Below are positions 3,321 through 53,362 of a stretch of DNA of 58,195 nucleotides, in pieces. Below the pieces are notes generated by a model. That model was not told the origin of the DNA. It searched no databases and worked only from the letters and a program-made list of their open reading frames with translations. How positions within the stretch are numbered: position 1 is the first letter of the stretch; every line of letters begins with the position of its first letter. This stretch comes from Gammaproteobacteria bacterium (lineage in GTDB: Bacteria > Pseudomonadota > Gammaproteobacteria > Steroidobacterales > Woeseiaceae), in assembly GCA_029863125.1 (NCBI GenBank), contig JAOTWB010000011.1:1-58195 (forward strand), read 5' to 3'. Position numbers and translations under genes: made by a program.

Positions 3321-3349
3321 GCCGGGCTGCCCCTCAGCTGCGGCCCGGC
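3321..3349. other. Hairpin between dehydrogenase and radical SAM gene
   Basis: GCCGGGC and GCCCGGC form a perfect 7-bp stem around a 15-nt loop, 24 bases after the dehydrogenase stop. No T-run follows, so it may be a pause or attenuation hairpin rather than a terminator. Confidence 0.3.
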
Positions 3350-3365
3350 TGTACTATAGGACACA

Positions 3366-4268: not shown

Positions 4269-4346
4269 TGGTCGGAGCGCAGACCCGTATCGTTAAGACC
4301 GGAAAAATACCGCTTCGAAGAACTCCAGTTGCCGGAGCGCCCCGAT

Positions 4347-8416: not shown

Positions 8417-8428
8417 CGTTGCCCGCTC

Positions 8429-8851: not shown

Positions 8852-8965
8852 CCTGCTGCCATGGTGATGCTTTCCCGGTGGCGCGTAAATAAGCAGTAGT
8901 GCATACAACAATGCGACCCGTTAACGGCAGTCGGCCCTGACCGCCCTGGTGAACCTCCTGCGGCG

Positions 8966-32849: not shown

Positions 32850-34259
32850 TTACGCAGGATACCCGCACACGATCTTCGATTTCTCCCGGACAAACCCGAC
32901 GAAACGACTGACCCAGGGGTCTGCCTCCGTGTTTCGATGGTGCACAAACCCCGCGAGGAAATTTCCAACGATCAGGCCGTCACGATGACCATCGATACCG
33001 TGGCCACGGATTACTCGATAGGCGTAGTCAAGATCAGCGGGCAGGTTCTCCAGTCGAGCATAATGAAATTCGTGCGCGGGAATGCCGGCTCCTGAATGGC
33101 TGGTGCTACGGGATGCCGCGGGCCACAATCCCTTTCCTGTTTCCTCTATCATCACATAGCCTCTGCCCTGCGGTCGGTCCTCGACGATGACGTCGCCCGG
33201 CACCGCCCCGACCATTTCGCACTTCTCACCACGCCACCGGATATTTCTTGCCAGATACATCAAGCCGCCGCACTCCGCGTACGCGGGCATACCTGCGGCT
33301 AGTTTCTGACGGATGTCTGCGCGCAGGCTCTTGTTCGCCGCCAGGGCGGGCAGACACATTTCGGGGAATCCGCCGCCAATGAAAAGACCGTCGGCCGCAG
33401 GCAATTCCGAATCACTCAGCGCATCGAAAAAGAGAAGTTCGGCACCGGCATCCTCGAATGCCTCGAGATCGTCCGGGTAATAAAAGCCGAAAGCTGCATC
33501 GCGGGCGACAGCGATACGCACATCGGGCTTTGCCGCAGCAGGTGCGCCAGCAATCTGTGGTTCCATGTGGGCCGATTCCGCCATGCCGGCGATCCCGATC
33601 AGGCGATCGACATCCATGCCGGCAGATGCCGCATCGGCAAGCCGGCGGATCGTCGCATCGACGGCTTCAGCTTCATTGGCCGGAATGAGCCCGAGATGCC
33701 GCTCCGGAATCTCGAGCGCCTGGTCACGGCCGATCGCCCCGATTATTTCCGCGTCCGTGTAACGCTCCAGTGCCGCACGGAGCTTACCCTCATGGCGTGG
33801 GCCGCCGACTTTGTTGAAGATCACGCCGCAAACATCGACGCCCCGATCGAAGTCCAGGTATCCATTAATCAAGGGGGCGATGCCCCTCGTCATGCCGGTG
33901 GCGTCTATTACCAGCACCACCGGCGCCGACAGCATTTTCGCCAGCGCTGCATTGCTGTCGGATCCTTCGACGTCAATACCGTCGAAGAGCCCTTTGTTGC
34001 CCTCGATCAGGCTGATATCGGCGCCGGCTGATCTGGTGGCGAAACTGGTGACAATCTCAGTATGGGACATGGTAAAGAAATCGAGGTTGTAGCAAGGGCG
34101 TCCTGCGGCACGTCCCAACCATAAGGGATCGATATAATCAGGGCCTTTCTTGAATGGCTGTACTGCCAGACCCCGTCTTAGCATTTCGGCCGCAAGTCCG
34201 ATCGCAACCGACGTCTTGCCGGAGGACTTATGCGCGGCTGCTATCAGAAGGTGTGCCAA
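32850..34259 (-). CDS. dsrN: DsrN, cobyrinate a,c-diamide synthase-like siroheme amidase
   Basis: 469 residues of the CbiA/CobB family: N-terminal P-loop HKSSGKTSVAIGL near 10, KGPDYIDP near 39, IEGNKGLFDG near 85, and a C-terminal class I-like glutamine amidotransferase with the Cys in YAECGGLMYLAR near 332. In sulfur oxidisers the last gene of the dsr cluster encodes this protein, which is held to amidate siroheme to siroamide for DsrAB. A TTG start at 34259 fits the homology; the nearby ATGs are out of frame. It lies 36 bases after dsrJ, where dsrO and dsrP would normally stand. Confidence 0.88.
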   Translation of the reverse strand: MAHLLIAAAHKSSGKTSVAIGLAAEMLRRGLAVQPFKKGPDYIDPLWLGRAAGRPCYNLDFFTMSHTEIVTSFATRSAGADISLIEGNKGLFDGIDVEGSDSNAALAKMLSAPVVLVIDATGMTRGIAPLINGYLDFDRGVDVCGVIFNKVGGPRHEGKLRAALERYTDAEIIGAIGRDQALEIPERHLGLIPANEAEAVDATIRRLADAASAGMDVDRLIGIAGMAESAHMEPQIAGAPAAAKPDVRIAVARDAAFGFYYPDDLEAFEDAGAELLFFDALSDSELPAADGLFIGGGFPEMCLPALAANKSLRADIRQKLAAGMPAYAECGGLMYLARNIRWRGEKCEMVGAVPGDVIVEDRPQGRGYVMIEETGKGLWPAASRSTSHSGAGIPAHEFHYARLENLPADLDYAYRVIRGHGIDGHRDGLIVGNFLAGFVHHRNTEADPWVSRFVGFVREKSKIVCGYPA

Positions 34260-34295
34260 AACAGCATCGCTCCGCCGCCGGTCCTGCCATGTGCT

Positions 34296-34700
34296 TCAAC
34301 GCCGGCGCCAACGCGATCTGTGGCAGTCGAAACAATCGATCTGCACCGCGGCGTAATCGTGACACGTGCGACAAAAATGTTGCGGGCTGTCCGCAGTCAC
34401 TATGCTTCCGTCCGACCCCTTGACCGCATGACAGGTTACGCATTCTTTGAGGCTGTACTTGTCGGCGGGTATGCCTGTCAATGTGGTTTCGTCATGCTGA
34501 CGCTTGAGTACCGACATATGGTACCGGCGTATAAACTCCGTATCGTCGACACAGCTGTCGCCTTGCCCCCGGGCAATCACCGGCATCGGTACGCCCTCGT
34601 TCCCCGACGCGTCCAAAGCGCCGTTCAGGCCGGTCAGTACAACCAGTGCCAGGAGCAGGACCAGTGCGACAGTCACGATTGGGCCGTGGCGCGTTGCCAT
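34296..34700 (-). CDS. dsrJ: DsrJ, periplasmic triheme cytochrome c
   Basis: 134 residues. An uncleaved or cleavable signal anchor (VTVALVLLLALVVLTGL) leads to three CxxCH haem motifs: CVTCH at 87-91, CRTCH at 110-114 and CFDCH at 123-127. Cys50 in GDSCVDDTEFIRRYHM corresponds to the conserved extra cysteine that gives DsrJ its unusual His/Cys haem ligation. In the known DsrMKJOP complex DsrJ sits on the periplasmic face with DsrO and DsrP. It starts 3 bases after dsrL. The C-terminus ends soon after the third haem (RSRWRRR), at the position where dsrO would follow. Confidence 0.92.
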   Translation of the reverse strand: MATRHGPIVTVALVLLLALVVLTGLNGALDASGNEGVPMPVIARGQGDSCVDDTEFIRRYHMSVLKRQHDETTLTGIPADKYSLKECVTCHAVKGSDGSIVTADSPQHFCRTCHDYAAVQIDCFDCHRSRWRRR

Positions 34701-34703
34701 GAA

Positions 34704-36632
34704 TTACTCTCCCAATCCCATCCGGATATACCCCGACGGACAGACATCTGCACAAATGTGACAACCGATACATTTCGTATAGTCGGTGTCAACATAGTGG
34801 CCCGTGGTCGATACCGATTTATCGACCCGGAAAATCGCATCCTGCGGACAATAGATGACACAGTTATCACACTCGAAACACATGCCGCAGCTCATACAGC
34901 GGCTGGCTTCCTGCCGGGCTTCTTCTTCTGTCAAACCTTGTATCCGTTCGCCGAAATGCCCCAGCACGGAGTCTTCGCCGATTTCGATTTCCTTGCGCAA
35001 GCGCCTGGCATCGTATTTGAAATGGCCGAGAAACAACTGGTCCGACGGTACGATTTCCGCAACCGAGCGGTCTTCATAATTGTGAATCGCAAAATCGGCT
35101 TCGTCAGTTCCCCGCTCCTGTACATGTTCATATTCGCTCGGTGCGTGGTCAATTTCCCGTAACTTCTCCAGCAGGCTGAAGTGATGTACGTCGACCCTGG
35201 GTCGCCGTGACAGGTTGGCACCGGTCACAAAACTGTCTATTCCGTCCGCCGCGATCGAGGCGTGCCCGATCGCGGTCGTCAACAGATGCGGCTTCACAAT
35301 GTCGCCACCTACGAACAGATCGGCATGATTCTCGATCCGATAGAACCCGTCAGCATCGATCAGCCCCGAACCATTATCGAGGTTTTCCAGGCCGACGAGG
35401 TCCCCTTGCTGACCGATAGCCGCGACGATCAGGTCGCACTCGATATCCTTTTCGGTCCCTTCCTTGACGACCATCTTGCCGGTGCTCCAATCGGCCTCGA
35501 TGACACGCAATGCCGTGGCGCGGCCATCGTCACCGACTACCACCGAAACAGGCGCCAGCGAGGTGCGGATCTGCACGCCCTCCCGGGTCACGTGCTCGAT
35601 CTCCATCCTCGTGGCCGGCATTTTGTCGAGAGGCCGCCGGTAAACGATCGTCACCTCGGCACCCTGCCGGTGGGCGACTGTCGCCACATCGTGCACCGTT
35701 TGGCCGAGAACGACGCTTTCCGGCCTGTCGTGGTCACGTTGTTGCTGGATGTGCCCGAGGCGCCTGGCAACCGCGGCAACGTCCATCGCCGTATCGCCGC
35801 CACCGATCACCAGCACGCGCTCGGCGGAGTGCTTCAGGCGCCCGTCATTGAATGCCTCCAAGAAGGCGATGCCGCTAATGCAGTTGGGCGCGTCCCCGCC
35901 CGGCACCGGCAAGGCCGCGCCGGACTGTGCGCCAATACCAAAAAATATGGCATCGAATTCCGCCCGTAGATCCTCGAGCGACATATCGGCACCGATCTTG
36001 AAATTCGTGCGGACCTCAACGTCGAGATCGAGAATGCGCCGGATTTCGCCGTCGAGCACTTCACGCGGCACCCGATACCCGGGAATACCGTAGCGCATCA
36101 TGCCGCCCAGTTCGTCGTGCGCCTCGAAGATCGTGCAGGCATGCCCCTTGCGGCGTAACTGATAGGCGCACGCGAGGCCGGCTACCCCACCGCCGACAAT
36201 CGCGACCTTCTTGCCGGTATCTTTCCCCGCCGGTCGAAGCTTCAGTCCATGTTCGAGGGCATAGTCGCCGATGAACTGCTCGATCGAATTGATGCCGACA
36301 TGATCCTCGACTTCATTTCGGTTGCAGCCATCTTCACATGGCGCCGGGCATACCCTGCCCATGATGGCTGGAAACGGGTTGGCATCGGTAACGCGGTTGA
36401 ACGCGTATTCCTGCCAGGCCATATCTCCGGGAGCTTTTTCGATCCCGCGCACGATATTCAGCCAGCCACGGATATCCTCGCCCGACGGGCAGCTTCCCTG
36501 GCATGGCGGCGTACGGTGAACGTATGTCGGGCACTTGAATGACGAATCGGCCGTGAAAATTTGTTCCTGCCAGGGTCGATGTGCGTTGTCGCCATCTTTG
36601 TAACGACGTATGGTGAGAAGTTTCTCGTTCAT
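34704..36632 (-). CDS. dsrL: DsrL, iron-sulfur flavoprotein oxidoreductase
   Basis: 642 residues, related to the small subunit of glutamate synthase. N-terminal cysteine cluster (CQGSCPSGEDIRGW, then CPAPCEDGCNR), FAD motif VAIVGGGVAGLACAYQL near 141, NAD(P) motif VLVIGGGDTAMDVA near 264, and a C-terminal ferredoxin domain with CMSCGMCFECDNCVIYCP and CIGCHICADVCP. In sulfur oxidisers DsrL couples DsrAB turnover to NAD(P). Start ATG overlaps the dsrK stop by four bases. DsrL marks the oxidative form of the pathway together with DsrEFH. Confidence 0.95.
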   Translation of the reverse strand: MNEKLLTIRRYKDGDNAHRPWQEQIFTADSSFKCPTYVHRTPPCQGSCPSGEDIRGWLNIVRGIEKAPGDMAWQEYAFNRVTDANPFPAIMGRVCPAPCEDGCNRNEVEDHVGINSIEQFIGDYALEHGLKLRPAGKDTGKKVAIVGGGVAGLACAYQLRRKGHACTIFEAHDELGGMMRYGIPGYRVPREVLDGEIRRILDLDVEVRTNFKIGADMSLEDLRAEFDAIFFGIGAQSGAALPVPGGDAPNCISGIAFLEAFNDGRLKHSAERVLVIGGGDTAMDVAAVARRLGHIQQQRDHDRPESVVLGQTVHDVATVAHRQGAEVTIVYRRPLDKMPATRMEIEHVTREGVQIRTSLAPVSVVVGDDGRATALRVIEADWSTGKMVVKEGTEKDIECDLIVAAIGQQGDLVGLENLDNGSGLIDADGFYRIENHADLFVGGDIVKPHLLTTAIGHASIAADGIDSFVTGANLSRRPRVDVHHFSLLEKLREIDHAPSEYEHVQERGTDEADFAIHNYEDRSVAEIVPSDQLFLGHFKYDARRLRKEIEIGEDSVLGHFGERIQGLTEEEARQEASRCMSCGMCFECDNCVIYCPQDAIFRVDKSVSTTGHYVDTDYTKCIGCHICADVCPSGYIRMGLGE

Positions 36633-38149
36633 TCTGTACTCATTTCCTCGGAGTGACTGGTCGTCTGCCCGTCAAGGACGATGGCATTCGAAACCAGCTG
36701 ATGCAGGCTGACAACGCAGTCCATATCAAATCCATAGGCTGGCATGACTTTCGCAAATTGCGACTTGCAGATCGCACAGATCGCCGCCATGTGCGTGACG
36801 CCATGATCTTTTACGACTTCCTGCAGTGCCCGCATGCGCGGTGCCGCGCCCTTGGTCCGGATTTCCAGCAGGTCATCCGTCAGCAGCCCGCCGCCCCCGC
36901 CGCAGCAAAACGTCTTTTCCCTGATGGTGTCGGCAGCCATGTCGACGAAGTTGTTGCAGCAGGCCCTGATTATCGCTCGCGGAATCTCGAACTGCCCGCC
37001 GGGACTGCTGCCCATGCGCGAGCCACGCGCGACATTGCACGAATCATGATAGGTCAGCGTCATGTGATCGTTGGCTGACTTGTCCAGCGTCAACTCGCCT
37101 CTTTCGATGAGGTCGTAGGTAAATTCGCAAATGTGTTGCGGTATCGGGTAAGCCGGATCGAGAAAGTCGAAAGGCCCGGCCAGCGTGTTGAGAAAGCTGT
37201 AGGCGACTCGCCACGCATGCCCGCACTCGCCGAAAACGATGCGCTTGACGCCGAGATCCTCGGCAGCTTTCCGGATGCGCTCCGCGATCAGCTTCATTTG
37301 CTCGTAAGAGCCGATGAACAGGGCGAAATTCGCCGCTTCTGAGGCATAAGAACTGAGTGTCCAGCTGACTCCCGCCTGATGAAACACCTTGGCGTAGCCG
37401 ATCAGGCCATCGACGTGAGGCTCCGCAAAAAAGTCGGCACTGGGCGTCACCAACAGGATTTCCGCGCCTTTCACATTGACCGGTAGCTTTACCTGCACAC
37501 CGGTGTCTTCCTCGATGTCCTCTTCCAGGCCGTCCAGCGTATCGCGCAGTGCCGCCTCGGGCAGCCCGAGGTTGTTGCCGATCTTGTGAACCTTGCCGAT
37601 AATCTCGTTGCAGTATTTCTGGCCTTTGCCGATGTGATCCATGATCTCGCGTGCGGCCATCGATACTTCCGCGGTATCGATACCGTAGGGGCAAAAAACC
37701 GAGCATCGCCGACACTGTGAACATTGGTGGAAATAGGTGTACCAGTCGTCGAGCAGCTCTTCGGTCAGATCCTCGGCGTCGACCAGCCATGGCACAAGCT
37801 TGCCCGCCCATGTGAAGTTGCGACGATAGACCTTGCGCATTAGATCCTGGCGCGCAACCGGCATGTTTTTCGGATCCCCGCTGCCAAGGAAATAGTGGCA
37901 TTTGTCGGTGCAAGCTCCACACTTCACGCAGCTGTCCATGTAGACCTTGAGCGCCCGCGACCTGCGGAGCAATTCGGCAAACTTGTCGATCGCCTTCGAT
38001 TGCCAGTCGTCGACCAGTTCGCCCGGGAAACCAAGCGCCTCCTGGTGTGCCGGGGCTGCCGCAAACGGCGACAGGTGTTCCATTGCCCCTTTCTTGAGAG
38101 CCGGAATGTCAATCGGCGCGGTGATCGAAGGTATGTCGTAATCAGCCAT
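36629..38149 (-). CDS. dsrK: DsrK, HdrD-like iron-sulfur subunit
   Basis: 506 residues. Two ferredoxin-type clusters (CVKCGACTDKCHYF near 74 and CSQCRRCSVFCPYG near 145) and two CCG-type domains (CGHAW, YHDSCNVARGS, FCCGGGGG) that hold the special [4Fe-4S] cluster as in heterodisulfide reductase HdrD. It acts on DsrC trisulfide/persulfide on the cytoplasmic face, passing electrons to or from DsrM. Start is 3 bases after dsrM. Confidence 0.95.
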   Translation of the reverse strand: MADYDIPSITAPIDIPALKKGAMEHLSPFAAAPAHQEALGFPGELVDDWQSKAIDKFAELLRRSRALKVYMDSCVKCGACTDKCHYFLGSGDPKNMPVARQDLMRKVYRRNFTWAGKLVPWLVDAEDLTEELLDDWYTYFHQCSQCRRCSVFCPYGIDTAEVSMAAREIMDHIGKGQKYCNEIIGKVHKIGNNLGLPEAALRDTLDGLEEDIEEDTGVQVKLPVNVKGAEILLVTPSADFFAEPHVDGLIGYAKVFHQAGVSWTLSSYASEAANFALFIGSYEQMKLIAERIRKAAEDLGVKRIVFGECGHAWRVAYSFLNTLAGPFDFLDPAYPIPQHICEFTYDLIERGELTLDKSANDHMTLTYHDSCNVARGSRMGSSPGGQFEIPRAIIRACCNNFVDMAADTIREKTFCCGGGGGLLTDDLLEIRTKGAAPRMRALQEVVKDHGVTHMAAICAICKSQFAKVMPAYGFDMDCVVSLHQLVSNAIVLDGQTTSHSEEMSTE

Positions 38150-38152: not shown

Positions 38153-38902
38153 CTATTTGCCTCCGGCTTTTTGCCGTCCTGCATCCAATGCCGCGGCCCA
38201 CGGCGCAAGGTGTCTTTTCTCGCGGGGATTATCGGCCTGGTTGCGGCCGGGACTGAAAAAGACGCCAGGAGCATGGAGCAGCTTCGAAAACGGGAACACG
38301 ATCATCAATGCCAATACCAGCCCCAGGTGGATCAGCAACACCGCGTCGTTGGGAATTGGCTGCCAGTCGAAATAGATCAGCCCGAGCACGAATGCTTTCA
38401 ATGCGACGATGTCTGTGCGCACCACGTACTTCATCAGCAGTCCGGTTGCCGCGATACCGATCAGCAACAGCAACATGAGATGGTCGGAAGGCCCGGAAAT
38501 ATAACGTATGCGTTCGACCACGAAGCGCCGCAGCCAGAGCGCAACCAGCCCGGCGAGCATCGCGAAGCTGGCGTACAACCCGAAAGGCTGGACCCACTTT
38601 ACCCAGGACCAGACCGGCTCGGTGAAGTAACGCAGATGGCGCATCACTACCAGCAACAATGCCGCGTGAAATACCCAGCCGAACAGCCAGGTCCATTTGT
38701 TGGCCTTGAAAAGACTTTCAAAGAAGACGACTTCCTTCGCCATGCGGATGACCACGCCCGATGGTTTCACGGGCGCCGGCGTCGTCGGGATTTTCAGTGG
38801 AGCGGGTGTTCTGGCATAGACCACAATTCTGTACAGCAGGCCGACGACGAAAACCGCCGTAGCGAAGTAGGCCAGTACTGCAAAGATGGTGCCCAGAAGC
38901 AA
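38153..38902 (-). CDS. dsrM: DsrM, membrane cytochrome b subunit
   Basis: 249 residues with about six hydrophobic helices (for example LLGTIFAVLAYFATAVFVVGLLYRI, FHAALLLVVMRHLRYF, HLMLLLLIGIAATGLLMKY, LIHLGLVLALMIVFPFSKLLH). Histidines within helices fit a NarI-like dihaem cytochrome b that exchanges electrons between DsrK and quinone. It lies directly after dsrC (15-base gap) and before dsrK. Confidence 0.92.
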   Translation of the reverse strand: MLLGTIFAVLAYFATAVFVVGLLYRIVVYARTPAPLKIPTTPAPVKPSGVVIRMAKEVVFFESLFKANKWTWLFGWVFHAALLLVVMRHLRYFTEPVWSWVKWVQPFGLYASFAMLAGLVALWLRRFVVERIRYISGPSDHLMLLLLIGIAATGLLMKYVVRTDIVALKAFVLGLIYFDWQPIPNDAVLLIHLGLVLALMIVFPFSKLLHAPGVFFSPGRNQADNPREKRHLAPWAAALDAGRQKAGGK

Positions 38903-38917: not shown

Positions 38918-39250
38918 TCAAATGCAACCCGTTGGTTTCGGCAAACCGGCAATTTTGCAGGCCTGCTTGGCCGGTCCATAAGGGAACAACTCATACAGGT
39001 ATTTGCTGTTCCCCTTATCCGCCCCCAGTGTTTTTTTGATCGCCTTGGTCAATACCCGTACTGCCGGGGCGATCTGGTATTCCTCGTAGTAATTGCGCAG
39101 GAAGTTGACGACCTCCCAGTGGTCATCGTCCATCTCGATGTCTTCTTCGGCTGCAATCTGGATCGCCAATTCCCGGCTCCAAAGGCTGATATCAGTGATA
39201 TAGCCTTCCTCATCCGTTTCGACTGTTACTCCGTTGCATTCATAAGCCAT
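38918..39250 (-). CDS. dsrC: DsrC, sulfur carrier protein
   Basis: 110 residues. The C-terminal arm holds both redox cysteines, Cys98 (KQACKIAGLPKP) and the penultimate Cys109 (TGCI), eleven residues apart as in true DsrC. DsrC carries sulfur as persulfide/trisulfide between DsrEFH, DsrAB and DsrMK. The 73-base gap to dsrH is the largest inside this part of the cluster and holds a GTCACGTGAC palindrome, so dsrC may have an extra promoter or a processing site. Confidence 0.97.
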   Translation of the reverse strand: MAYECNGVTVETDEEGYITDISLWSRELAIQIAAEEDIEMDDDHWEVVNFLRNYYEEYQIAPAVRVLTKAIKKTLGADKGNSKYLYELFPYGPAKQACKIAGLPKPTGCI

Positions 39251-39323: not shown

Positions 39324-39635
39324 TCATAGCCATGACTGCGTGGCATCATGTTCCGCCACCATATCGACGAAGCCTTCATAGTCGACAATATCAATGCCCT
39401 CGATCAACGGCGCGTCACTCAGACCCCGCGCCGCAACATCAGGACCAAGAACATAAAAAGAAAAATCGCCCATCCGTCCGATGATTTTTTCGGCGTGGGC
39501 GGATTTCGCCAACGCCGCATAAACGCCGTCCTCGATGAGCAAGATCGCGCTTCCGGACTTCGCCATGCGAAGGCAGCTATCCAGTGCGTTTCTCTCGAAC
39601 GGCGACTTGTTGACTAAATGCAGCATCGAACTCAC
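39324..39635 (-). CDS. dsrH: DsrH, sulfurtransferase subunit
   Basis: 103 residues, TusB-like. The pattern LHLVNKSPFERNALDSCLRMA places the conserved Cys at position 21, and the end VDYEGFVDMVAEHDATQSWL is typical. It forms the DsrE2F2H2 hexamer that passes sulfur to DsrC. A GTG start at 39635 overlaps the dsrF stop (GTGA); an internal ATG at 39626 is also possible. Confidence 0.93.
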   Translation of the reverse strand: MSSMLHLVNKSPFERNALDSCLRMAKSGSAILLIEDGVYAALAKSAHAEKIIGRMGDFSFYVLGPDVAARGLSDAPLIEGIDIVDYEGFVDMVAEHDATQSWL

Positions 39636-40030
39636 GAACTAATAATGACGTCTTGTTGCGCCATGACCTCGCGCAGCTCATCTGCGGCCATGACCTCAAC
39701 CGGGATCACCAGGTCGCCGGCCGTCAGGCCGCGCGCATCAAGCGATTCTTTTTCCACGTAGATTTTCTCAACATCGTAGTCATCGAGCGCCCCGTAGGTC
39801 TTCGAGAAATTCTTCATGCCGATACCTGTCGTGTCCTGATTCTTCTTCAGCTGACATACGCCATCGTCCAGGAACACAACGCTGACATCCTGATCGAACG
39901 CCGCAGCAATCAAAACGACTTCGAGACATTCAAGTGCGTAAATCGTGCCGTACGGTGCCCTGCGATTCACATACATGAATCGCTTGACAATCTCGGGAAC
40001 GTCCTCGTCGAATTCGTTCATTTCACTCAT
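39632..40030 (-). CDS. dsrF: DsrF, sulfurtransferase subunit
   Basis: 132 residues, TusC-like. Pattern FMYVNRRAPYGTIYALECLEVVLIAAAFDQDVSVVFLDDGVCQL is characteristic. Structural partner of DsrE and DsrH. It begins 6 bases after dsrE and overlaps dsrH by 4. Confidence 0.93.
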   Translation of the reverse strand: MSEMNEFDEDVPEIVKRFMYVNRRAPYGTIYALECLEVVLIAAAFDQDVSVVFLDDGVCQLKKNQDTTGIGMKNFSKTYGALDDYDVEKIYVEKESLDARGLTAGDLVIPVEVMAADELREVMAQQDVIISS

Positions 40031-40036: not shown

Positions 40037-40396
40037 TCAGTCGCCGAACACGATGAGCCGGTCCGCCTGGATGCCCGCCTCGACGAGTTGACCAAGCCCG
40101 GAGATCCGAAACCCGTTTTCAAGAACCTCATCCTTGATCCCACGGCGCAGTGCGGCGGCAACGCACACGACCAGGTCGATGTCGTGGTCCCTGCCCAGCC
40201 GCGACCACAACGAGACCAGGTTACGATCATCGGTCTGAGGTTCGGACAGTCTGTTGGAGTTGTATACGCCATCGTTGTAGAAAAACACGCGATAGATTTC
40301 ATGCCCCTTGGCGAGCGCGGCTGCCGTAAAGCGATACGCACTGTCCGAAGCCTGGTGCGTGAACGGACCTTCGTTGATGAGGACCGCGAATTTCAT
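40037..40396 (-). CDS. dsrE: DsrE, sulfurtransferase subunit
   Basis: 119 residues, TusD-like. The active-site cysteine is Cys78 (DIDLVVCVAAALRRG), at the same position as the persulfide-carrying cysteine of the Allochromatium protein. The presence of DsrEFH marks a sulfur-oxidising rather than a sulfate-reducing dsr system. Its start overlaps the last base of dsrB. Confidence 0.95.
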   Translation of the reverse strand: MKFAVLINEGPFTHQASDSAYRFTAAALAKGHEIYRVFFYNDGVYNSNRLSEPQTDDRNLVSLWSRLGRDHDIDLVVCVAAALRRGIKDEVLENGFRISGLGQLVEAGIQADRLIVFGD

Positions 40397-41475
40397 CAGA
40401 AGTGAATATGCGTGGATGCGTTCAGACTACCGCGCGCACCACGCCAATCGTCGATGTGATGCCGGGTGAAGGCAAGCCCGGTTTTTTCGAAGAATCGCGG
40501 CCAGCCGATACGTTCGATCCACTCACCCATGCGTTCCCAGTCGCGACCGTCCTCCTTATACACATAAAGGATGGTCTTCACGATCTCCGCCACTTCGGGC
40601 CAGCGCGGCGGATTGTTCGGCAGACCCGCGGCCACCAGCTTGTGAAAGGTCGGCTTCGAGCGCGCATTCGAATGCTTGCCGCCCACCCAGATTGCCAGCC
40701 TGGTTGAATCGGGTCCGTTGATCTGCATCGGCGGACAGGGTGGATAGCACGCGCCGCAGCAGATGCATTTCTTCTCGTCGACCTCGAGCGAGGGCTTGCC
40801 ATTGACCATCGCCGGGCGGATCGCCGCCACCGGGCAGCGCGCCACAACTGCCGGACGCTCGCAAACATTGGCGACAAGATCGTGGTTGATTTTCGGTGGT
40901 TTCGTGTACTGCACGTTGATTGCAATGTCTCCCTGGCCACCGCAATTAATCTGGCAGCACGAGGTTGTGATGCGTACCCGGTTTGGCATTTCTTCGTGCG
41001 TGAATTCGTGGTGCAATTCATCCATCAACGCTTTAACGACACCGGATGCATCAGTGCCCGGGATGTCACAGTGCAGCCACCCCTGGGTATGGGAAATCAT
41101 CGATATTGAATTACCGGTACCTCCGACCGGAAAGCCCGCCGCGTTAAGTCGTTCGATTAGCGGTCCCGTCTTGTCCTGGGACGTAACCATGAACTCTGCA
41201 TTGCTGCGGGTTGTAAAGCGTAAATGGCCATCGGCGAATTCATCCGCAATGTCACACAGTTTGCGGATCGTATGCACATCCATCTGGCGCTGCGTCCCGG
41301 CACGCACTGTCCATACTTCATCACCGCTCTTGGCGACATGGTGCAGGACACCCGGCCGTGGCCGGTCGTGCCAGTCCCATTGCCCATAGTTCTTCTTCAG
41401 CAACGGGTGCATTTGCGGGAACGGATCCATGACCCCGGTTTCGTCCGCTCTACGAGGTTTTTTGGCCCCTTTCAT
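40396..41475 (-). CDS. dsrB: DsrB, reverse dissimilatory sulfite reductase beta subunit
   Basis: 359 residues. Siroheme/[4Fe-4S] region motifs include FTTRSNAEFMV, HTQGWLHCDIPGTDASG and TTSCCQINCGGQGDIAIN; the ferredoxin domain is CICCGACYPPCPP near 239. Together with DsrA it forms the alpha2beta2 enzyme that here is expected to oxidise DsrC-bound sulfur to sulfite. It lies 72 bases after dsrA. Confidence 0.97.
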   Translation of the reverse strand: MKGAKKPRRADETGVMDPFPQMHPLLKKNYGQWDWHDRPRPGVLHHVAKSGDEVWTVRAGTQRQMDVHTIRKLCDIADEFADGHLRFTTRSNAEFMVTSQDKTGPLIERLNAAGFPVGGTGNSISMISHTQGWLHCDIPGTDASGVVKALMDELHHEFTHEEMPNRVRITTSCCQINCGGQGDIAINVQYTKPPKINHDLVANVCERPAVVARCPVAAIRPAMVNGKPSLEVDEKKCICCGACYPPCPPMQINGPDSTRLAIWVGGKHSNARSKPTFHKLVAAGLPNNPPRWPEVAEIVKTILYVYKEDGRDWERMGEWIERIGWPRFFEKTGLAFTRHHIDDWRGARGSLNASTHIHF

Positions 41476-41547: not shown

Positions 41548-42798
41548 CTACTCGACCGCAGCGCTTTTCCGTTCGAACCATTTTCCAGCCTCCTCATCCC
41601 AATCGTCGGTTCGAACATATGAACTGGTACGCGGATGATTGACCATGTTGGGGTCGACTTCGACGCCGATGCCTGTGAGGAAATTGGCAAGGCCGATGCG
41701 ATCGATGGTCTCACCGATACGTTCGTGTTCGAGCGCATTCTCGGCGAAGAACTCGATAACCGTTTCCGCGAGTTCATAAAGCCGGTCGAAGTCCTCATCG
41801 GTCTCAAGCGGCATGAACGGAATGATGACCGTGCCCATCTGGTCACCGATTTTCAGTGATCGCTTGCCACCGATCAGGACGGTGGCGCCACGTTCCTTGC
41901 CGGGTGACAGGGCTTTCGTCATGACATTGATACAGTGCATGCAACGCACGCAGCTGCTGTTGTCGACGTCGAGAGTGTCGTCGTCGTTCAGGCTCAGCGC
42001 ACGCGTCGGGCAGTTGGCGATCACCGTATCGATCATCAGTTTTCGGCCTACCCTGGCCACGTGTTCCTTAACCTTCTCCTGGTCGACCTGGATGCTGTCG
42101 CGCCAGATGCCGATTACCGCGAAATCCGCGCGGTGGATGGAATTCACACAGTCGTTCGGGCAGCCCGAGAATTTGAATTTGAATTTGTACGGCAATGCCG
42201 GGCGGTGCATTTCATCAAGCAGGCCGTTGATGATTTTTCGATGAACGCGAACCTCGTCATAACACGACTGCTCGCAGCGAGCATGGCCGACGCAGCTCAT
42301 GGCCGTCCGCAAAGCGGGCCCGGCGCCACCCATGTCCATGCCGATTTCGTTCAGATCATCGAATGCCTTTTGCACATTATCGGAGCTGCACCCCTGGAAC
42401 ATGATGTCCCCGGACTGGCCATGGAGTGCAATCAGGCCCGAACCATGCTTCTCCCAGATGTCGCACATATTGCGCAACAGCTCTGTGGAATAATGCAGTC
42501 CAGCCGGGGGTTGCACACGCAGCGTGTGAAACTCTGAAGAGTCGGGATAGTCCGCGGCGACTTCGGAGAACCTGGGAATGACGCCCCCACCATAGCCGAA
42601 GACGCTGACCGTGCCGCCCTTCCAGTAACCCATGCGGGTTTCGTAGGAGTGTTCGAGCTGACCCAGCAGGTCCTTCATCATATTGGCGTACGGCTTGTCG
42701 TTGTCGCTCGCCAATCGTTTGAGGCCTGAAACAAAACTCGGCCAGGGACCTTGTTCCAGTTCATTCAACAACGGGGTTTCGTGTGGTCTCTTCGACAT
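41548..42798 (-). CDS. dsrA: DsrA, reverse dissimilatory sulfite reductase alpha subunit
   Basis: 416 residues. The ATG at 42798 is preferred because AGGTGGGG lies at good spacing and the protein then starts MSKRPHETPLLNELEQGPWP; a start at 42846 adds residues without match. Cluster ligands appear in SCVGHARCEQSC and FKFSGCPNDCVNSIHRAD, and the ferredoxin domain has CVRCMHCINVM near 305. It is the first gene of an eleven-gene cluster read from a divergent promoter region at about 42.9 kb. Confidence 0.97.
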   Translation of the reverse strand: MSKRPHETPLLNELEQGPWPSFVSGLKRLASDNDKPYANMMKDLLGQLEHSYETRMGYWKGGTVSVFGYGGGVIPRFSEVAADYPDSSEFHTLRVQPPAGLHYSTELLRNMCDIWEKHGSGLIALHGQSGDIMFQGCSSDNVQKAFDDLNEIGMDMGGAGPALRTAMSCVGHARCEQSCYDEVRVHRKIINGLLDEMHRPALPYKFKFKFSGCPNDCVNSIHRADFAVIGIWRDSIQVDQEKVKEHVARVGRKLMIDTVIANCPTRALSLNDDDTLDVDNSSCVRCMHCINVMTKALSPGKERGATVLIGGKRSLKIGDQMGTVIIPFMPLETDEDFDRLYELAETVIEFFAENALEHERIGETIDRIGLANFLTGIGVEVDPNMVNHPRTSSYVRTDDWDEEAGKWFERKSAAVE

Positions 42799-42903
42799 AG
42801 CAATCCCCACCTGTCGGGCGTCGCAGAATTGTACCGACCGGTGCAACTCTCAGGTAATTGCAGAAAACACCTAGCCGGTACCTCCGACCTTCTAATTTAG
42901 TAT

Positions 42904-42997: not shown

Positions 42998-43858
42998 ATG
43001 TTTCTCTCCAGTGCAACGGATTACCGTGAATGGCGTGCCGCCAAGCTCGACAGGTACCCGACCCGCGTCGACGAACTGATCGTCAATATCGGCGAGCTGG
43101 CCGACCTGGATTACCGCGGCACAGAGGCCATCCGCTCAAGTTGCAGGCGGGCAAATATGGCCATCTATTCCTGCAATGACAGCGGTGTCGATCACACAGC
43201 GATACTCGCGTTCGCCGCAAATTTCGGCCTTCGCCGAATCGACCATCACCTTTGTGCGAGTAACGACGGCGTTGCCGAGCTGACCGTCGCATCCGAGGGT
43301 GCTGGAAGTGACTATGTACCGTATTCCGACCATAGCCTCGGCTGGCATACCGATGGCTACTACAATGCGGAGTCGAGCCGGGTGCGCGCTGTCATCCTCC
43401 ACTGCGTGCAGGACGCGACGACAGGAGGAGAGACTGGCGCGCTTGACCCCGAGATCGTCTACATCAGATTGCGTGACGCAAACCCCGCGTTCATCACAGC
43501 CCTTGAGCATCCTGAGTGCATGACGATTCCGGCCAACGTCGGCAATCGGGGGGAGATCCGGCCCGCAATCTGCGGACCGGTATTCTCGTACGACGCCGCC
43601 GACGGAGCTCTGCACATGCGCTACAGCGCCCGCAAGAAAAACATTTGCTGGCGCGACGACCCGACGACCAGGGCCGCCCGCGAATTCCTGTCAGAGCTGC
43701 TCGACGATAAAAGCGGTCCTGTTTTGCGCTTCCGCCTGCAGCCGGGGCAAGGACTTATTTCCAACAATGTGCTGCATAACAGGACCGCTTTCCAAGACGG
43801 ACCGTCTCGCAAACGCTTGCTGTATCGCGTCCGCTTTTTCGATCGCATAAACTCCTGA
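42998..43858 (+). CDS. TauD/TfdA-type Fe(II)/2-oxoglutarate dioxygenase
   Basis: 286 residues. The iron ligands are visible as HTD (His117, Asp119 in LGWHTDGYYN) and the distal His260 in NNVLHNRTAF, with an Arg-rich 2-oxoglutarate site RKRLLYRVRF after it. Members oxidise sulfonates, carnitine-type compounds and many other small molecules. It is divergent from dsrA and is the first of four same-strand genes ending with the Rieske fusion. Its location inside the sulfur island suggests an organosulfur or redox substrate; this is inference only. Confidence 0.8.
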   Translation: MFLSSATDYREWRAAKLDRYPTRVDELIVNIGELADLDYRGTEAIRSSCRRANMAIYSCNDSGVDHTAILAFAANFGLRRIDHHLCASNDGVAELTVASEGAGSDYVPYSDHSLGWHTDGYYNAESSRVRAVILHCVQDATTGGETGALDPEIVYIRLRDANPAFITALEHPECMTIPANVGNRGEIRPAICGPVFSYDAADGALHMRYSARKKNICWRDDPTTRAAREFLSELLDDKSGPVLRFRLQPGQGLISNNVLHNRTAFQDGPSRKRLLYRVRFFDRINS

Positions 43859-45546: not shown

Positions 45547-45578
45547 TGTTTGGGGCGTGCCAGTCCGGAGTACGAGAT

Positions 45579-46230: not shown

Positions 46231-47457
46231 TCAGGATTCTGCCCGAACATTATATTTGACCTGCCCGTCCCTGATTACCGGCCGGACGGCGGCGCGGCCG
46301 GACCAGCGCGCGTAAACCATGGCCACAACGCGGAACAGGATATGCCCCATCTTGGTATAGGGCATGTAGGCCAGCAGGAAGAACACCAGCACAAGGTGCA
46401 CGTAATAGATGCCATAGGCCGGGATCGCCAGGTCGGAGACCCGGAACACCTGGGAAGCAAAGCCCGTTATCACGGTCATGAAAAGTGCCCAGATGAAGGT
46501 CCAGTCGAAGGCTGTCGCCTTGCCGGATTTGTCGGAGGCCATCCGTCGGGCAAGCAACACCGAACAGCCCAGGAAAACAAGCGTACCGCTGACGTTCCCG
46601 AGCACCTTGACCGGATGGAAGAAGTCGTAGGGGCTAAGCTGCGCGTCCATGCCGAACTGATTCATGTAATACAGGATTCCCACCAGGGTGGTGGTGACGA
46701 CCAGGCCGATAAACCCGTACATGACCAATGCATGCGCGCCGGCCCGGGACTTGTCGGTCGTGCATTCGAGGAACTTGCGATGCGACAACACATCCAGCAG
46801 CGTTCCCATGATCGCGGCGGGCAGGGATTCCCCGCTTTCGGTGCGCGGATATTCCACCGCCAGCGAGCGCAGGAAACCCGTAATGCTCAGCAGGGCTGTG
46901 ACAATGGCGAACGCGATGGCCGGGATGAAGACGACATCAATAGCCGGCACCGGCATCATCTTCGAGAACACGATCGTGCCGGACAGGAACCCGAACGCCG
47001 AGCCGCCGGGTAACGCCAGGATCACGGCGGCGATGATGATCATTGGGATCAGGAACAGCATCCAGATGCGCGAGGGCGTCTGCGCAGCCGCGGCCAGGAA
47101 TGCGGGCCTGGCGAAATGGACGATGCTCATTGAGCGAATCACGTTCATCACATCACCCGGCCTGGCGCTGCGCGGACAATGCGTCGAGCAATCATTGCAA
47201 TGGATGCACAGCCAGGCGTCCAGGCTGGACACCAGTTTTTCTTTCAGGCCGAACTGGGCACGAATCATTTCCTTGCGCGGAAACGGGGATTCATCCGGCG
47301 TGATCGGACAAACCACCGTGCAGGTGGAGCATTGGTAACAATACTTCAGATCCGCTGCGCCGGAACCCAGGAGTTTTTCGACGAACTCCAGGTCGCCGTT
47401 GATGGCGACTCGCTCGTTCGCAGATTCTGTTACCGGTTGGATCGTCGTTTCCATCAT
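46231..47457 (-). CDS. qmoC: QmoC, membrane subunit of quinone-interacting oxidoreductase
   Basis: About 408 residues. Two [4Fe-4S] motifs near the N-terminus (YCYQCSTCTVVCP and WLCIHCNDCSTHCPRSARPGD), then a HdrE/NarI-like cytochrome b domain with about six helices (FLIPMIIIAAVILALPG, AIAFAIVTALLSITGFL, ALVMYGFIGLVVTTTLVGILYYM, IYYVHLVLVFFLLAYM). It links QmoAB to menaquinone or ubiquinone. ATG pair at 47457/47454 follows qmoB by 10 bases. Known from sulfate reducers and from sulfur oxidisers, where it takes electrons from APS reductase. Confidence 0.94.
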   Translation of the reverse strand: MMETTIQPVTESANERVAINGDLEFVEKLLGSGAADLKYCYQCSTCTVVCPITPDESPFPRKEMIRAQFGLKEKLVSSLDAWLCIHCNDCSTHCPRSARPGDVMNVIRSMSIVHFARPAFLAAAAQTPSRIWMLFLIPMIIIAAVILALPGGSAFGFLSGTIVFSKMMPVPAIDVVFIPAIAFAIVTALLSITGFLRSLAVEYPRTESGESLPAAIMGTLLDVLSHRKFLECTTDKSRAGAHALVMYGFIGLVVTTTLVGILYYMNQFGMDAQLSPYDFFHPVKVLGNVSGTLVFLGCSVLLARRMASDKSGKATAFDWTFIWALFMTVITGFASQVFRVSDLAIPAYGIYYVHLVLVFFLLAYMPYTKMGHILFRVVAMVYARWSGRAAVRPVIRDGQVKYNVRAES

Positions 47458-47467
47458 CGTTGTCGGC

Positions 47468-49606
47468 CTACATTCCCTTGAACGGGTTCGGCCCGTAATC
47501 GTCGATATCCGCGGCAAAGGTCTCGATCAGCTTCGCCACCTGCCTGTAGTCGTTCATGGAAACCTCGTACTGGCGGATGCGTTCCGGTTCGAGCTGTAAG
47601 CGGCCTAGCGTCTCTTCCACTTTGGAAAGGCGAGTGTTGGCAAGTTCGGAGCCTTTCACAAAATGGCACTGATAGTCGTCGCCGTACTTGCAGCCCATGA
47701 ACATCACACCATCGAAACCCACCGAGAGTGCGTCCGAGACCCACACCAGGTTGACGCCACCCAGGCAACGCAGGGGGATGATCCGCACATACGGGCTGTA
47801 CCTGATTCGTTCCAGCGCCATCATATCGATGGCCGGCAAGGTGTCGTTTTCACAGGCGAAGATCAGGATCCGCGGTTTCTCTTCAAATTCGTCGGGAATC
47901 TCGATGCTCTTGATCATGTCCCCGATTATGTCGACGCTGTAATCCCTGAACGAGATGATGCGCACCGGGCAGGCGCCCATGCAGACGCCGCAACCACGGC
48001 AGCGCGACTCGTGAATCGACGGCGTGCCGCGCGCGTCCTCTTCCAGCACGCCGAAGGGACATTCCTCCGTGCAGCGCTTGCACTGGGTGCATTGATCCAG
48101 GCGGAATACCGGGAAGGTCTCGTCACCTACCCGTGGATGCACGGTCTTGCCCTGTTTCGTCAACTCGATGGTCTGAATGGCCTTCAACGCAGCTCCCGCA
48201 GCGTCCTTTCTGGAGAAGTTCATGTCCATCGGTTGATGGACGGCCCCGGCGGTGAAAATACCGGTGCGCCGGGTCTCGTACGGGAAGCAGATAAAGTGGG
48301 AATCCGGAAAGCCGTATTGCTGATCCGGCAGGCCGGGTCCCTGGCGGTACTGCAGGTTCAGGATGGGGTCGTCCCTGGTCGAAGCCTCGATACCGACGGC
48401 CAGCACCACCAGGTCCGCCGCGATCGCCACCTTCTCTCCCAGCAGCGAGTTATCCACATCGACGGTGACGGTCTTGTCGGGGTTTTCATGGACGCCCGAT
48501 ACGTCCCCCTTGGTGAGGAAAATGCCCGGGTCGTTCTGACCGGCGCGGTAAAAATTCTCGTATTGCCCGGGCGTGATCATGTCCCTGTAGATCACATAGG
48601 CTTTCTTGTCCGCGCCGAACTCGCGTACGTATGCGGCCTGTTTGAGGCTGACCGTGCAACAGAAGGAAGAACAATACGGGAGATGATCGGGATCCCGGGA
48701 ACCGGCGCACTGGATGAAGACCACGCTGTTAGCCTCCTGCCCGTCCTTGCGCACGAGTCTGCCCGAGGCCGCCATCTGTTCGAATTCGACACTGCTGATC
48801 ACGTTGTCATGGGCGATGCCGAGGTGTGTCAACTTCGAGGCATCGTAAGGCTTGCCGCCCGTGGCCAGCACCACCGCTCCCGCGCGCAGGTTTTTTTCGC
48901 CACTGCCATTCGCGGTCAACCGGACTGAAAAATCCCCCGGTGCGCCCGCAATCGACGCGATCGTGGAGGACAGGTGCAGCGTGATCCTGCCGTGTGATTC
49001 AACCTCGCGGATCAGTTCGTCCAGATCCGGGGACTCGGCGCGCTCGAACGGCGACCGGGAAGGTGTACGCCGGTGCAATTTCCTGGCGAAGCCGCCGAGG
49101 CGATCGCTTTTTTCCACCAGGTGCACCACGTACCCGGCCTGCGCCGATTCGAGCGCAGACGTCATGCCGGTCACGCCACCTCCCACCACCAGCACGGCTT
49201 CCTCCGTATTTTGCTCGAACGGTATGGCCGGCCGTTTCATCTGCGCGGCAGTAGTGTGCATGCGGATGTAATCCGCCGCCAGCATTTGGGTATCTTCTTC
49301 CTGGTGGGGCTGGGTCCAGGAGACGTACTCTCGCAAAGGCGCTCGCTCGACCACGACCTCCTTGCCGAAATCGAAGGTGTCCTCATGGTAGCGGCGCGAG
49401 CAGGCGCCCAACACCAACCGGTCGAGGCCCTCGTTTTCCAGATCGCCTTTCAGCAGGTTGACCCCTTCCTCGCTGCAGAGGATGGGGTGGATTTTGCAGA
49501 CGGGAACCCGAAACTCGTTGACGGCGACCTGTTGGAGCTCTTCCACGTTGGTCGCCTCTCCGATCTCGCAGCCGGAACAAATATAAACGCCGGTTTTGTT
49601 CGCCAC
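47468..49606 (-). CDS. qmoB: QmoB, HdrA-like flavoprotein with MvhD-like domain
   Basis: 712 residues. FAD motif VLVVGGGVTGMTSALESAQ near 138, HdrA-type VFIQCAGSRDPDHLPYCSSFCC near 302, two ferredoxin clusters (CTQCKRCTEECPFG and CRGCGVCMGACP) near 515-550, and a C-terminal MvhD-like domain (ILIFACENDTLPAID ... LRCLGGVN ... MGCKYGDDYQCHF). It is a soluble partner of QmoA facing APS reductase. It begins 4 bases after the qmoA stop. Confidence 0.95.
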   Translation of the reverse strand: MANKTGVYICSGCEIGEATNVEELQQVAVNEFRVPVCKIHPILCSEEGVNLLKGDLENEGLDRLVLGACSRRYHEDTFDFGKEVVVERAPLREYVSWTQPHQEEDTQMLAADYIRMHTTAAQMKRPAIPFEQNTEEAVLVVGGGVTGMTSALESAQAGYVVHLVEKSDRLGGFARKLHRRTPSRSPFERAESPDLDELIREVESHGRITLHLSSTIASIAGAPGDFSVRLTANGSGEKNLRAGAVVLATGGKPYDASKLTHLGIAHDNVISSVEFEQMAASGRLVRKDGQEANSVVFIQCAGSRDPDHLPYCSSFCCTVSLKQAAYVREFGADKKAYVIYRDMITPGQYENFYRAGQNDPGIFLTKGDVSGVHENPDKTVTVDVDNSLLGEKVAIAADLVVLAVGIEASTRDDPILNLQYRQGPGLPDQQYGFPDSHFICFPYETRRTGIFTAGAVHQPMDMNFSRKDAAGAALKAIQTIELTKQGKTVHPRVGDETFPVFRLDQCTQCKRCTEECPFGVLEEDARGTPSIHESRCRGCGVCMGACPVRIISFRDYSVDIIGDMIKSIEIPDEFEEKPRILIFACENDTLPAIDMMALERIRYSPYVRIIPLRCLGGVNLVWVSDALSVGFDGVMFMGCKYGDDYQCHFVKGSELANTRLSKVEETLGRLQLEPERIRQYEVSMNDYRQVAKLIETFAADIDDYGPNPFKGM

Positions 49607-49610
49607 CGTC

Positions 49611-50867
49611 CTATTCTCCTGCCGCGACCTGGATGGCCTTCAACGCCACACCGGTGGCTTCCTGGATCGAAGAGTTGACATCCACCGGTCCCTGGGCGAC
49701 CCCGGCTGCGAAGATTCCGGGTTGTTGCAAGTGCGCCGACGCGAAGCCGTCTTCATCCAGGTGAACGATGTTGCCGTCCAATCCATTCGCTTTCAGGTTC
49801 GATTCCATGCCGGTTGCCAGCACCACCAGGTCCACTTCCACCCGGACTTTCCCGCCATGGAGAATGTCCTCGGCCTCCACGATCACCCGGCCGTCCTCAC
49901 CCGGCTCGACCCGGGCCACCTTGCCCTTGATGAACTCGATGTTGCTGTCCTTCCTGGTACGCGAGTAGAACGCTTCGAATTTTCCCGGCGTACGGATATC
50001 GATGTAGAAAATATAGACCCTGGCGTCGGGATTAGCGGTACGGACATAATTGGCCTGCTTGAGCGAAGCCAGGCAACAGACGGAGGAGCAGTACGGCAGA
50101 TGGTCCTGGTCGCGGGAACCAGCGCACTGGACGAAGACCACCGTCTCCACCTTCCTGCCGTCCGAGGGCCGGGTGATTTCTCCGGCCGTTGGGCCATCCG
50201 TCGCCGCCAGCCGTTCCATCATCACGTTGGTGATCACATTCGGCAGGGCGCCAAACTGCATGCGCTCGAGCCTGGTGGCATCGTAGGGCCGCCACCCGGT
50301 CGCCATGACAATCGATGCCGCGTTGATCTCGAACTCGCGGGCTTCCATGTCGAGGTCGATGGCGTCGTAGGGGCAGGCCGACACACACTTGTCGCATCCG
50401 GACGGGCAATGCGCACGCTCCACCACAAAGCGCGGCGGGTAGGCCATCCGGTGGGGCATGTGAATGGCCCTGGTGTTCCGCATCCCGTAGTCATGGTCGC
50501 TGGGCACCTCCACGGGGCACACCGGCGTGCATTTGTCGCACATCACGCACTTGTTATTGACATAGGCCGGAGATTTCACCAGTTTCACGGTGAAATTCCC
50601 GGCCTCGCCTGATATCGCGCCCACCTGCGTGTTGGTGTGCACCTGGACGCGCCGGTTGCGCCGCAACCTCTGGTAATTGATCTCCACCCCACAGGTCGGG
50701 GGGCACAGTTTTGGGAAATACTGGTGAAAGCCGGCGACCCGCCCACCGAGGGAGGGGCGTTTCTCGATCAGAATGACCTCGTATCCGGTCTCCGCAGCCT
50801 CCAGGGCCGTGCTGATCCCGGAGATGCCGCCACCCACGACGAGAATTGGACCTTTTTTCTCCCCCAT
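49611..50867 (-). CDS. qmoA: QmoA, HdrA-like flavoprotein
   Basis: 418 residues. FAD-binding ILVVGGGISGISTALEAAE near 9, PTCGVEINYQRL, ferredoxin clusters CVMCDKCTPVCP and CPSGCDKCVSACPYD, and VFVQCAGSRDQDHLPYCSSVCC near 243. It pairs with QmoB to pass electrons between AprAB and QmoC. It follows aprA by 27 bases, so aprBA-qmoABC is one transcription unit. Confidence 0.95.
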   Translation of the reverse strand: MGEKKGPILVVGGGISGISTALEAAETGYEVILIEKRPSLGGRVAGFHQYFPKLCPPTCGVEINYQRLRRNRRVQVHTNTQVGAISGEAGNFTVKLVKSPAYVNNKCVMCDKCTPVCPVEVPSDHDYGMRNTRAIHMPHRMAYPPRFVVERAHCPSGCDKCVSACPYDAIDLDMEAREFEINAASIVMATGWRPYDATRLERMQFGALPNVITNVMMERLAATDGPTAGEITRPSDGRKVETVVFVQCAGSRDQDHLPYCSSVCCLASLKQANYVRTANPDARVYIFYIDIRTPGKFEAFYSRTRKDSNIEFIKGKVARVEPGEDGRVIVEAEDILHGGKVRVEVDLVVLATGMESNLKANGLDGNIVHLDEDGFASAHLQQPGIFAAGVAQGPVDVNSSIQEATGVALKAIQVAAGE

Positions 50868-50894
50868 GTCTTGGTTCTCATCCGGCCGGCTGGA

Positions 50895-52862: not shown

Positions 52863-52915
52863 TTCTCTTTCCTTGGCCCATGGTTTACGCGGGTGATGCC
52901 GGCCATTCGCCAGAC

Positions 52916-53362
52916 TTAAGGGTTGCCGGATGGAGTAGGCAGCGAATCCCCGCGGGCCTGATGGGTGAAAAATCCAGGCTCCTTGATTTTGCTCACGTCG
53001 CCTGTAAAAGAATCGGAGTAAATGTCCACCTGACCGGCGGCCACGGTTCGGTTGGGAAACTTGAAGCGCTTGAGATTCCCGTTGCGGAACTTGACAGTCC
53101 ACATAATCGTGTCCGATCCCATCATCGGAATAACCGAACCGCCCAGGGGAGCGAGATCGGCATAGCAGCGAATTTCGATGGCCTGCTGCGGGCAAATCTT
53201 CACACAGTTATAGCATTCCCAGCACTGCTCCGGTTCCTGATTGAAGCCCTTGCGGGTATCAGGGTTGAGCGCCATCAGATCGTGCGGACAGATGTACATG
53301 CAGGCGGTCTTATCCCGCCCCATGCAGCCATCGCATTTTTCAGTGATCACAAAACTAGGCAT
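52916..53362 (-). CDS. aprB: AprB, adenylylsulfate reductase beta subunit
   Basis: 148 residues. Two [4Fe-4S] clusters: CDGCMGRDKTACMYICPHD near 10-28 and CWECYNCVKICPQQAI near 47-62, the diagnostic spacing of AprB. The C-terminal tail (RNGNLKRFKFPNRTVAAGQV) wraps around AprA. It is the first gene of the apr-qmo unit, with a GGGGG-type ribosome site before the ATG, and is 53 bases upstream of aprA. Confidence 0.96.
   Translation of the reverse strand: MPSFVITEKCDGCMGRDKTACMYICPHDLMALNPDTRKGFNQEPEQCWECYNCVKICPQQAIEIRCYADLAPLGGSVIPMMGSDTIMWTVKFRNGNLKRFKFPNRTVAAGQVDIYSDSFTGDVSKIKEPGFFTHQARGDSLPTPSGNP

Follow-up and report, generated by a model that had tools for sequence, protein, structure and literature searches.

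Sulfur oxidisers of the Allochromatium vinosum type possess an oxidative-type dissimilatory sulfite reductase (rDsr) together with the complex DsrMKJOP. In this complex DsrM and DsrP have each been proposed to contain quinone sites, and quinone to cycle between the DsrMK and DsrJOP parts (PMC8076601). The role of DsrJOP has nevertheless been described as unclear (PMC10926707). Smaller sets exist: DsrMK-only complexes occur in archaea, Clostridia and some Deltaproteobacteria (PMC10504309), and cable bacteria have dsrTMKJ without dsrO or dsrP in the locus, together with a distal dsrOhPh-tetrahaem module which the authors themselves doubt joins DsrMKJ (sections on this module in PMC13047784). Here we consider a window of 58,195 nucleotides, meaning the whole stretch of DNA that was analysed, which is contig C23 of a 2.49 Mb metagenome-assembled genome (G000, 74% complete) of the Woeseiaceae, a family described as abundant and as part of the core community of marine sediments around the world (PMC5573963). 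The dsr cluster of this window passes directly from dsrJ to dsrN. Its gene content and junction suggest that dsrO and dsrP were deleted in one Woeseiaceae lineage from an otherwise complete rDsr cluster, and that the remaining DsrMKJ probably works without them.

The family models place the genes of the cluster on the minus strand in the order dsrA-B-E-F-H-C-M-K-L-J-N, as follows.

41548..42846, minus strand: dsrA (TIGR02064, 572 bits, cut-off 393)
40396..41475, minus strand: dsrB (TIGR02066, 519 bits, cut-off 341.5)
40037..40396, minus strand: dsrE (TIGR03012)
39632..40030, minus strand: dsrF (TIGR03010)
39324..39635, minus strand: dsrH (TIGR03011)
38918..39250, minus strand: dsrC (TIGR03342)
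38153..38902, minus strand: dsrM, cytochrome b subunit of 249 aa (NF038037, E 3e-54, below cut-off; alignment)
36629..38149, minus strand: dsrK, 506 aa (NF045796 DsrK, 598 bits, cut-off 400)
34704..36632, minus strand: dsrL, NAD(P)-binding Fe-S flavoprotein of 642 aa (NF009410, E 5e-216, above cut-off)
34296..34700, minus strand: dsrJ, triheme cytochrome c of 134 aa (NCBIfam DsrJ, E 8.5e-14, below cut-off)
32850..34259, minus strand: dsrN, CobB-type a,c-diamide synthase with a TTG start (TIGR00379, E 8e-124)

Curated cut-offs are exceeded for dsrA, B, E, F, H, C and K, for the L-type protein and for the CobB-type N. DsrM (184 bits, cut-off 300) and DsrJ (52, cut-off 100) match significantly yet below cut-off, on models that are named for sulfate reducers. 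The name dsrL comes from gene order and relatives, the NF009410 match alone indicating a DsrL-type NAD(P)-binding protein. Both dsrM and dsrK are present and intact, and the first-pass annotation of this DNA was correct in stating that the core genes from dsrA to dsrL are otherwise in place. Judging by DsrEFH and DsrL beside DsrAB, a trait of such clusters, this one appears to be of the oxidative type.

The spacing is 3 bp from dsrL to dsrJ and 36 bp from dsrJ to dsrN. The same annotation had reported dsrO and dsrP as missing after a dsrJ of 134 residues and three haems, with 36 bases to dsrN; its coordinates and counts hold, and the gap contains no intact copy of either gene. The same arrangement recurs in four other assemblies of the genus, G024, G012, G027 and G013, where dsrN follows dsrJ after 5 to 36 bp, so that five of the seven genus genomes with a readable junction show it. 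At these five loci tblastn recovered neither DsrP (two queries, best E 1.7) nor an intact DsrO (two queries). The order dsrJ-O-P-N is kept in two members of the genus, G028 and G014, and in G097 of a sister genus; about 2 kb between dsrJ and dsrN in G028 and G014 encodes a ferredoxin-type protein (316 bits on the DsrO model in G014, cut-off 200) along with one of NrfD type, about 410 aa long. The dsr contig of a further genome, G017, ends inside dsrL, before the junction. DsrJ itself has matches in 7 of 60 genomes and in 8 of 107 family genomes (the window's own counted in both), and DsrK passes its cut-off in 7 of 73 genus genomes.

Because the window genome is only 74% complete, it is the relatives that decide whether dsrO and dsrP are absent. 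The window genome returned no NrfD match and no canonical DsrP match, and its DsrO search gave short ferredoxin-like matches only (best E 8e-4). A canonical DsrP query found none in the five genomes, the best E of 1e-12 belonging to other NrfD proteins, and detected canonical DsrP in 4 of 107 family genomes (G014, G028, G097 and G117, E up to 1e-30). The last of these, from another genus and 71% complete, has canonical DsrP yet no dsrJ match (L204, G117:C115). As a control, the query reached E < 1e-120 in four non-clade genomes of a wider scan and only 8e-4 in G131 (L093). Misassembly at the junction is very unlikely, since four other genus genomes have the same adjacency, one of them (G027, about 40 contigs) is rated 100% complete, and no canonical DsrP is found in the five. 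The first-pass annotation had proposed a search for dsrO and dsrP elsewhere and a comparison of junctions among relatives; the search yielded no canonical DsrP elsewhere in the five genomes, and the comparison leaves next to no room for a collapsed assembly.

The wider scan used a DsrL alignment query and covered the best 80 of 555 confirmed loci, a sample weighted towards close relatives that does not count all rDsr organisms. In these 80, dsrJ is visible at 56 loci and not at the other 24. Both dsrO and dsrP are present at 51 of the 56, including two duplicate records (L095 = G014, L091 = G097); three are cut off, all in genomes with DsrP; one has dsrP elsewhere (L165); and one lacks both (L093, taken to be G024). 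Among these 56 loci, adjacency of dsrJ and dsrN without dsrO and dsrP is therefore confined to the Woeseiaceae clade. L165, from the Thiotrichaceae, was rejected as a second loss as its genome has DsrP elsewhere; its dsrJ has no dsrO, dsrP or dsrN downstream, where a long repetitive protein is encoded instead.

The junction in the window also bears a trace of what was lost.

34259..34318, minus strand: deletion scar, an out-of-frame dsrO-like remnant overlapping the 3' end of dsrJ (tblastn and shuffle test)

Read in a frame other than that of dsrJ, this segment gives GVEAHGRTGGGAMLF in the window and GVEACAGTRGGAMLF in G024, as against CVEACSDTGGGAMLF in the DsrO of G097. Its first sign was a weak, low-stringency tblastn match to DsrO (E 0.046 in the window, 0.026 in G024); matches to the ferredoxin domain of dsrL in the same list have lower E values (0.002-0.014), chance matches there also do at least as well, and the scar is singled out by its place at the junction, not by its E value. 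Local scores against seven DsrO proteins are 53-58 in the window and 50-65 in G024, compared with 21-31 against reversed DsrO, and the score of the whole segment is reached by 0 of 2000 shuffles in either genome (scored against two DsrO). When the GGGAMLF part is removed, 9 of 2000 shuffles reach the score in G024 and 270 of 2000 in the window. A dsrO-like remnant at this place therefore points to loss of the two genes by deletion. The C-terminus of DsrJ is shortened in both genomes, to ...CHRSRWRRR in the window, and G012, G027 and G013 keep a longer, native-looking end. Since neither junction type can be derived from the other by deletion alone, we infer that at least two deletions took place, whether independently or in an ancestor that had already lost part of the region. 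The possibility that bases shared before dsrN mark a common dsrO end, and thus one shared deletion, was discarded as G097, which retains dsrO and dsrP, has similar bases natively.

Other proteins that might have stood in for DsrO and DsrP were considered and rejected. The NrfD copy in G027, G012 and G013 adjoins an eight-haem cytochrome and a hydrogenase, which we take to be an Isp-type [NiFe] hydrogenase, and that of G024 adjoins a four-haem cytochrome; DsrO/NrfD pairs of like score are also present in G014 and G028, which retain dsrO and dsrP, and in G017. On the DsrP model these two NrfD proteins score 44 and 29 bits (cut-off 350), and the model separates NrfD proteins poorly, because the canonical DsrP of G014 scores only 60. 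Direct identity does separate them, since the DsrP of G014 and G028 are 83% identical and the other NrfD proteins reach at most 33% over part of their length, or 47% over one 15-residue piece. PF14589 matched nothing anywhere, controls included, and was hence uninformative. Also set aside was a second DsrK-like gene in the window genome, which sits in a hydrogenase-like cluster. That cluster (L170, G000:C71:1-9000) was recognised by resemblance and includes DsrM- and DsrK-like subunits.

The remaining DsrJ is well preserved in its redox motifs. In the window it has both the three CxxCH (residues 87, 110 and 123) and the distal cysteine, presumably a ligand, that together mark the DsrJ of DsrMKJOP; the three haem motifs and C50 are invariant in seven aligned sequences. 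Where it differs is at the N-terminus. Upstream of the first haem, peak hydrophobicity over 19 residues has a mean of 2.96 (range 2.75-3.03) in six rows from genomes without dsrO and dsrP, G024 being represented twice, and a mean of 2.08 (range 1.48-2.69) in the 55 others, the ranges being non-overlapping. Among the 55 rows are two duplicates, as well as four loci (L135, L145, L165 and L168) whose dsrO and dsrP lie outside the locus or were not seen; no row was obtained from three dsrJ-bearing loci of the scan (L097, L121 and L158). Frames were read from stop to stop, and in a few (L159, L168) the hydrophobic window lies far upstream of the haems. We take this as a lead that DsrJ may now anchor itself in the membrane through its N-terminus.

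Trees of DsrK (24 rows, four of them from genomes lacking dsrO and dsrP) and DsrL (27 rows, five such, with two rows under half filled) each unite these genomes in one clade with support of 100/99. Within the clade the pairwise ratios of nonsynonymous to synonymous substitution (dN/dS) are 0.06-0.10 for dsrC, 0.12-0.18 for dsrM, 0.07-0.12 for dsrK, 0.11-0.12 for dsrL, 0.26-0.65 for dsrJ and 0.14-0.24 for dsrN. The single usable pair that retains dsrO and dsrP gives 0.03 for dsrC, 0.05 for dsrM, 0.03 for dsrK, 0.04 for dsrL and 0.14 for dsrJ, with dsrN saturated. All six genes compared are under constraint, dsrJ least, and the clade is looser overall; a relaxation specific to DsrJ lost its support once dsrM, dsrK and dsrL were compared.

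Gene content, its recurrence in five genomes, the scar and purifying selection are the observed part of the case. As to how the complex changed, we incline towards the view that a three-subunit oxidative DsrMKJ with a helix-tethered DsrJ replaced the five-subunit complex, so that DsrO and DsrP became dispensable and were then deleted at least twice. On the cytoplasmic side DsrK would accept electrons from DsrC and pass them through the haems of DsrM to the quinone pool, as in DsrMK. DsrJ, anchored in the membrane through a hydrophobic helix at its N-terminus rather than docked on DsrO and DsrP, would serve as a periplasmic electron or sulfur-ligand arm, and the second quinone site and the coupling attributed to DsrP would be given up. 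If this is true, the loss is a natural deletion experiment on the function of DsrO and DsrP, and a smaller three-part complex suffices where five genes were thought necessary for sulfur oxidation. What DsrMK and DsrJ do could then be told apart from the handling of quinone and protons that is assigned to DsrP. A lineage that lacks exactly these two genes while others of its genus still have them also makes the role of DsrJOP testable by comparison.

A number of observations weigh against this interpretation. The dsrO and dsrP mutants of A. vinosum are reported to have the same defect as its dsrJ mutant, so the two genes were considered necessary. That dsrJ mutant is unable to oxidise stored sulfur (PMC4213376). 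No dsrO remnant could be detected at the junctions of G012, G027 and G013, where 844, 1673 and 1423 of 2000 shuffles, respectively, reach the score. The DsrN tree (23 rows, five lacking dsrO and dsrP) splits the clade, a fork with 95/91 support placing the window and G012 with G028 and G014. The dN/dS values of dsrM, dsrK and dsrL are two- to fivefold above the pair with dsrO and dsrP, with nothing particular to dsrJ. The DsrJ of G097, which has both genes, reaches a hydrophobicity of 2.69, just under the lowest value of the clade, and for this comparison the clade counts as scarcely more than a single evolutionary sample. In G024 (L008) dsrL (2366-4296) is frameshifted near residue 96 and dsrB (8059-9009) has a 43-residue gap relative to the window. 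Finally, two of the five genomes, perhaps three, hold a distal module resembling DsrO and DsrP that might substitute for them.

This last point is the basis of the main rival explanation, in which a distal multihaem cytochrome with DsrO-like and DsrP-like proteins docks on DsrMKJ and takes over the missing role. We regard it as unlikely. In G027 the module consists of a DsrO-like protein (194 bits, cut-off 200), an NrfD-type DsrP-like protein (405 bits, cut-off 350) and a cytochrome in which four CxxCH are present. All three genes recur in G012, where the count of CxxCH in the cytochrome is three; the G013 contig breaks off within the gene neighbouring the module position, which leaves room for it there. 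The module is more frequent in genomes without dsrO and dsrP (2 of 5) than in other genomes (3 of 102; Fisher p 0.017, kinship ignored), and the pairing in cable bacteria is similar, even if doubted by its authors (PMC13047784). Against this, the DsrP-like protein is only about 24% identical to canonical DsrP, and its passing the model marks likeness to the reductive type, because the canonical DsrP of G014 gets only 60 bits. The gene is present in 5 of 107 family genomes, namely G027, G012 and three without a dsrJ match or a DsrK match over cut-off. The module was not found in G024 or in the window genome, which is 74% complete and whose contig ends too early to tell, and G017 and G024 have a homologous cytochrome island without it. 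It may thus serve as a partner in some members of the clade but, given these dsrJ-less carriers and module-less islands, is not tied to dsr. The islands beside the module (L083, G027:C15:1-16000; L086 in G012) encode multihaem cytochromes with up to 19 CxxCH per protein and share their contig with a hydrogenase-like cluster.

It is improbable that the whole sulfur-oxidation cluster is decaying in this lineage and that the loss of dsrO and dsrP is the first sign. The damaged dsrL and dsrB of G024, the dN/dS of dsrJ of up to 0.65 and the few genus genomes with DsrK over cut-off would fit such decay, but dsrC, dsrM, dsrK and dsrL remain at 0.06-0.18 across the clade, the dsr genes are full length in the window and in those parts of G012 and G027 that can be read, and the haem motifs are invariant. 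Woeseiales rdsrAB are also transcribed in sediment, the dsrO and dsrP status being unspecified in the relevant passages of PMC7451513. A little less probable again is the idea that DsrMK alone performs the DsrC chemistry and that DsrJ is kept for a separate periplasmic job: DsrMK-only complexes do exist (PMC10504309) and dsrJ evolves fastest of the six genes, but it stays between dsrL and dsrN in all five genomes with its haem motifs and C50. That dsrO and dsrP are elsewhere, or were lost by misassembly in an incomplete window genome, is scarcely credible and largely refuted by the adjacency in four other assemblies, the lack of canonical DsrP in five genomes, whose missing fractions multiply to about 3e-6 (G027 floored at 1%), and the dsrO-like scrap at the junction.

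Upstream of the dsr genes the window contains a second sulfur cluster, which would form the sulfite to sulfate arm.

46231..53362, minus strand: aprBA-qmoABC-like cluster, aprA start approximate (Pfam domains including APS-reductase_C)
49611-50867: HdrA-type protein inside this cluster (family model)

The names aprA and qmoABC come from domains and gene order. Between the two clusters, adjoining cysG, a plus-strand gene (45546-46208) encodes a 220-aa protein in which a carboxymuconolactone-decarboxylase-like domain is fused to a Rieske [2Fe-2S] domain. A TauD-family dioxygenase gene (42998-43858, plus strand) is divergent from dsrA and lies immediately upstream of it.

In the literature on DsrMKJOP and on Woeseiaceae dsr, as far as it is openly available (subscription papers being little covered), no report was found of the loss of dsrO and dsrP from an oxidative-type cluster, and the Woeseiales dsr passages of PMC7451513 and PMC7082342 make no mention of either gene. 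Such a loss, with a deletion scar, looks new, and to this extent the suggestion in the first-pass annotation that a working DsrMKJ would be a new form of the complex is partly supported; the broader novelty is not, as a locus without dsrO and dsrP is known in cable bacteria and complexes of DsrMK alone are known as well. Compared with DsrMK-only complexes, the Woeseiaceae share a quinone-linked DsrMK without an NrfD module, but they keep DsrJ and their cluster is of the sulfur-oxidising kind. Like cable bacteria they have dsrMKJ without dsrO and dsrP in the locus and, in two of five genomes, a distal module of similar make-up, matched by description only; cable bacteria, however, have a reductive-type Dsr with dsrD and dsrT, whereas the Woeseiaceae cluster has DsrEFH and DsrL, and no such module was found in G024 or in the window genome, which is 74% complete. 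The closest resemblance is to the A. vinosum type, with which the clade shares the genes and order dsrABEFHCMKLJ and dsrN, a triheme DsrJ, and DsrL with DsrEFH, and from which it differs in the apparent deletion of dsrO and dsrP, in the more hydrophobic N-terminus of DsrJ and, in the window and G024, in its shortened C-terminus.

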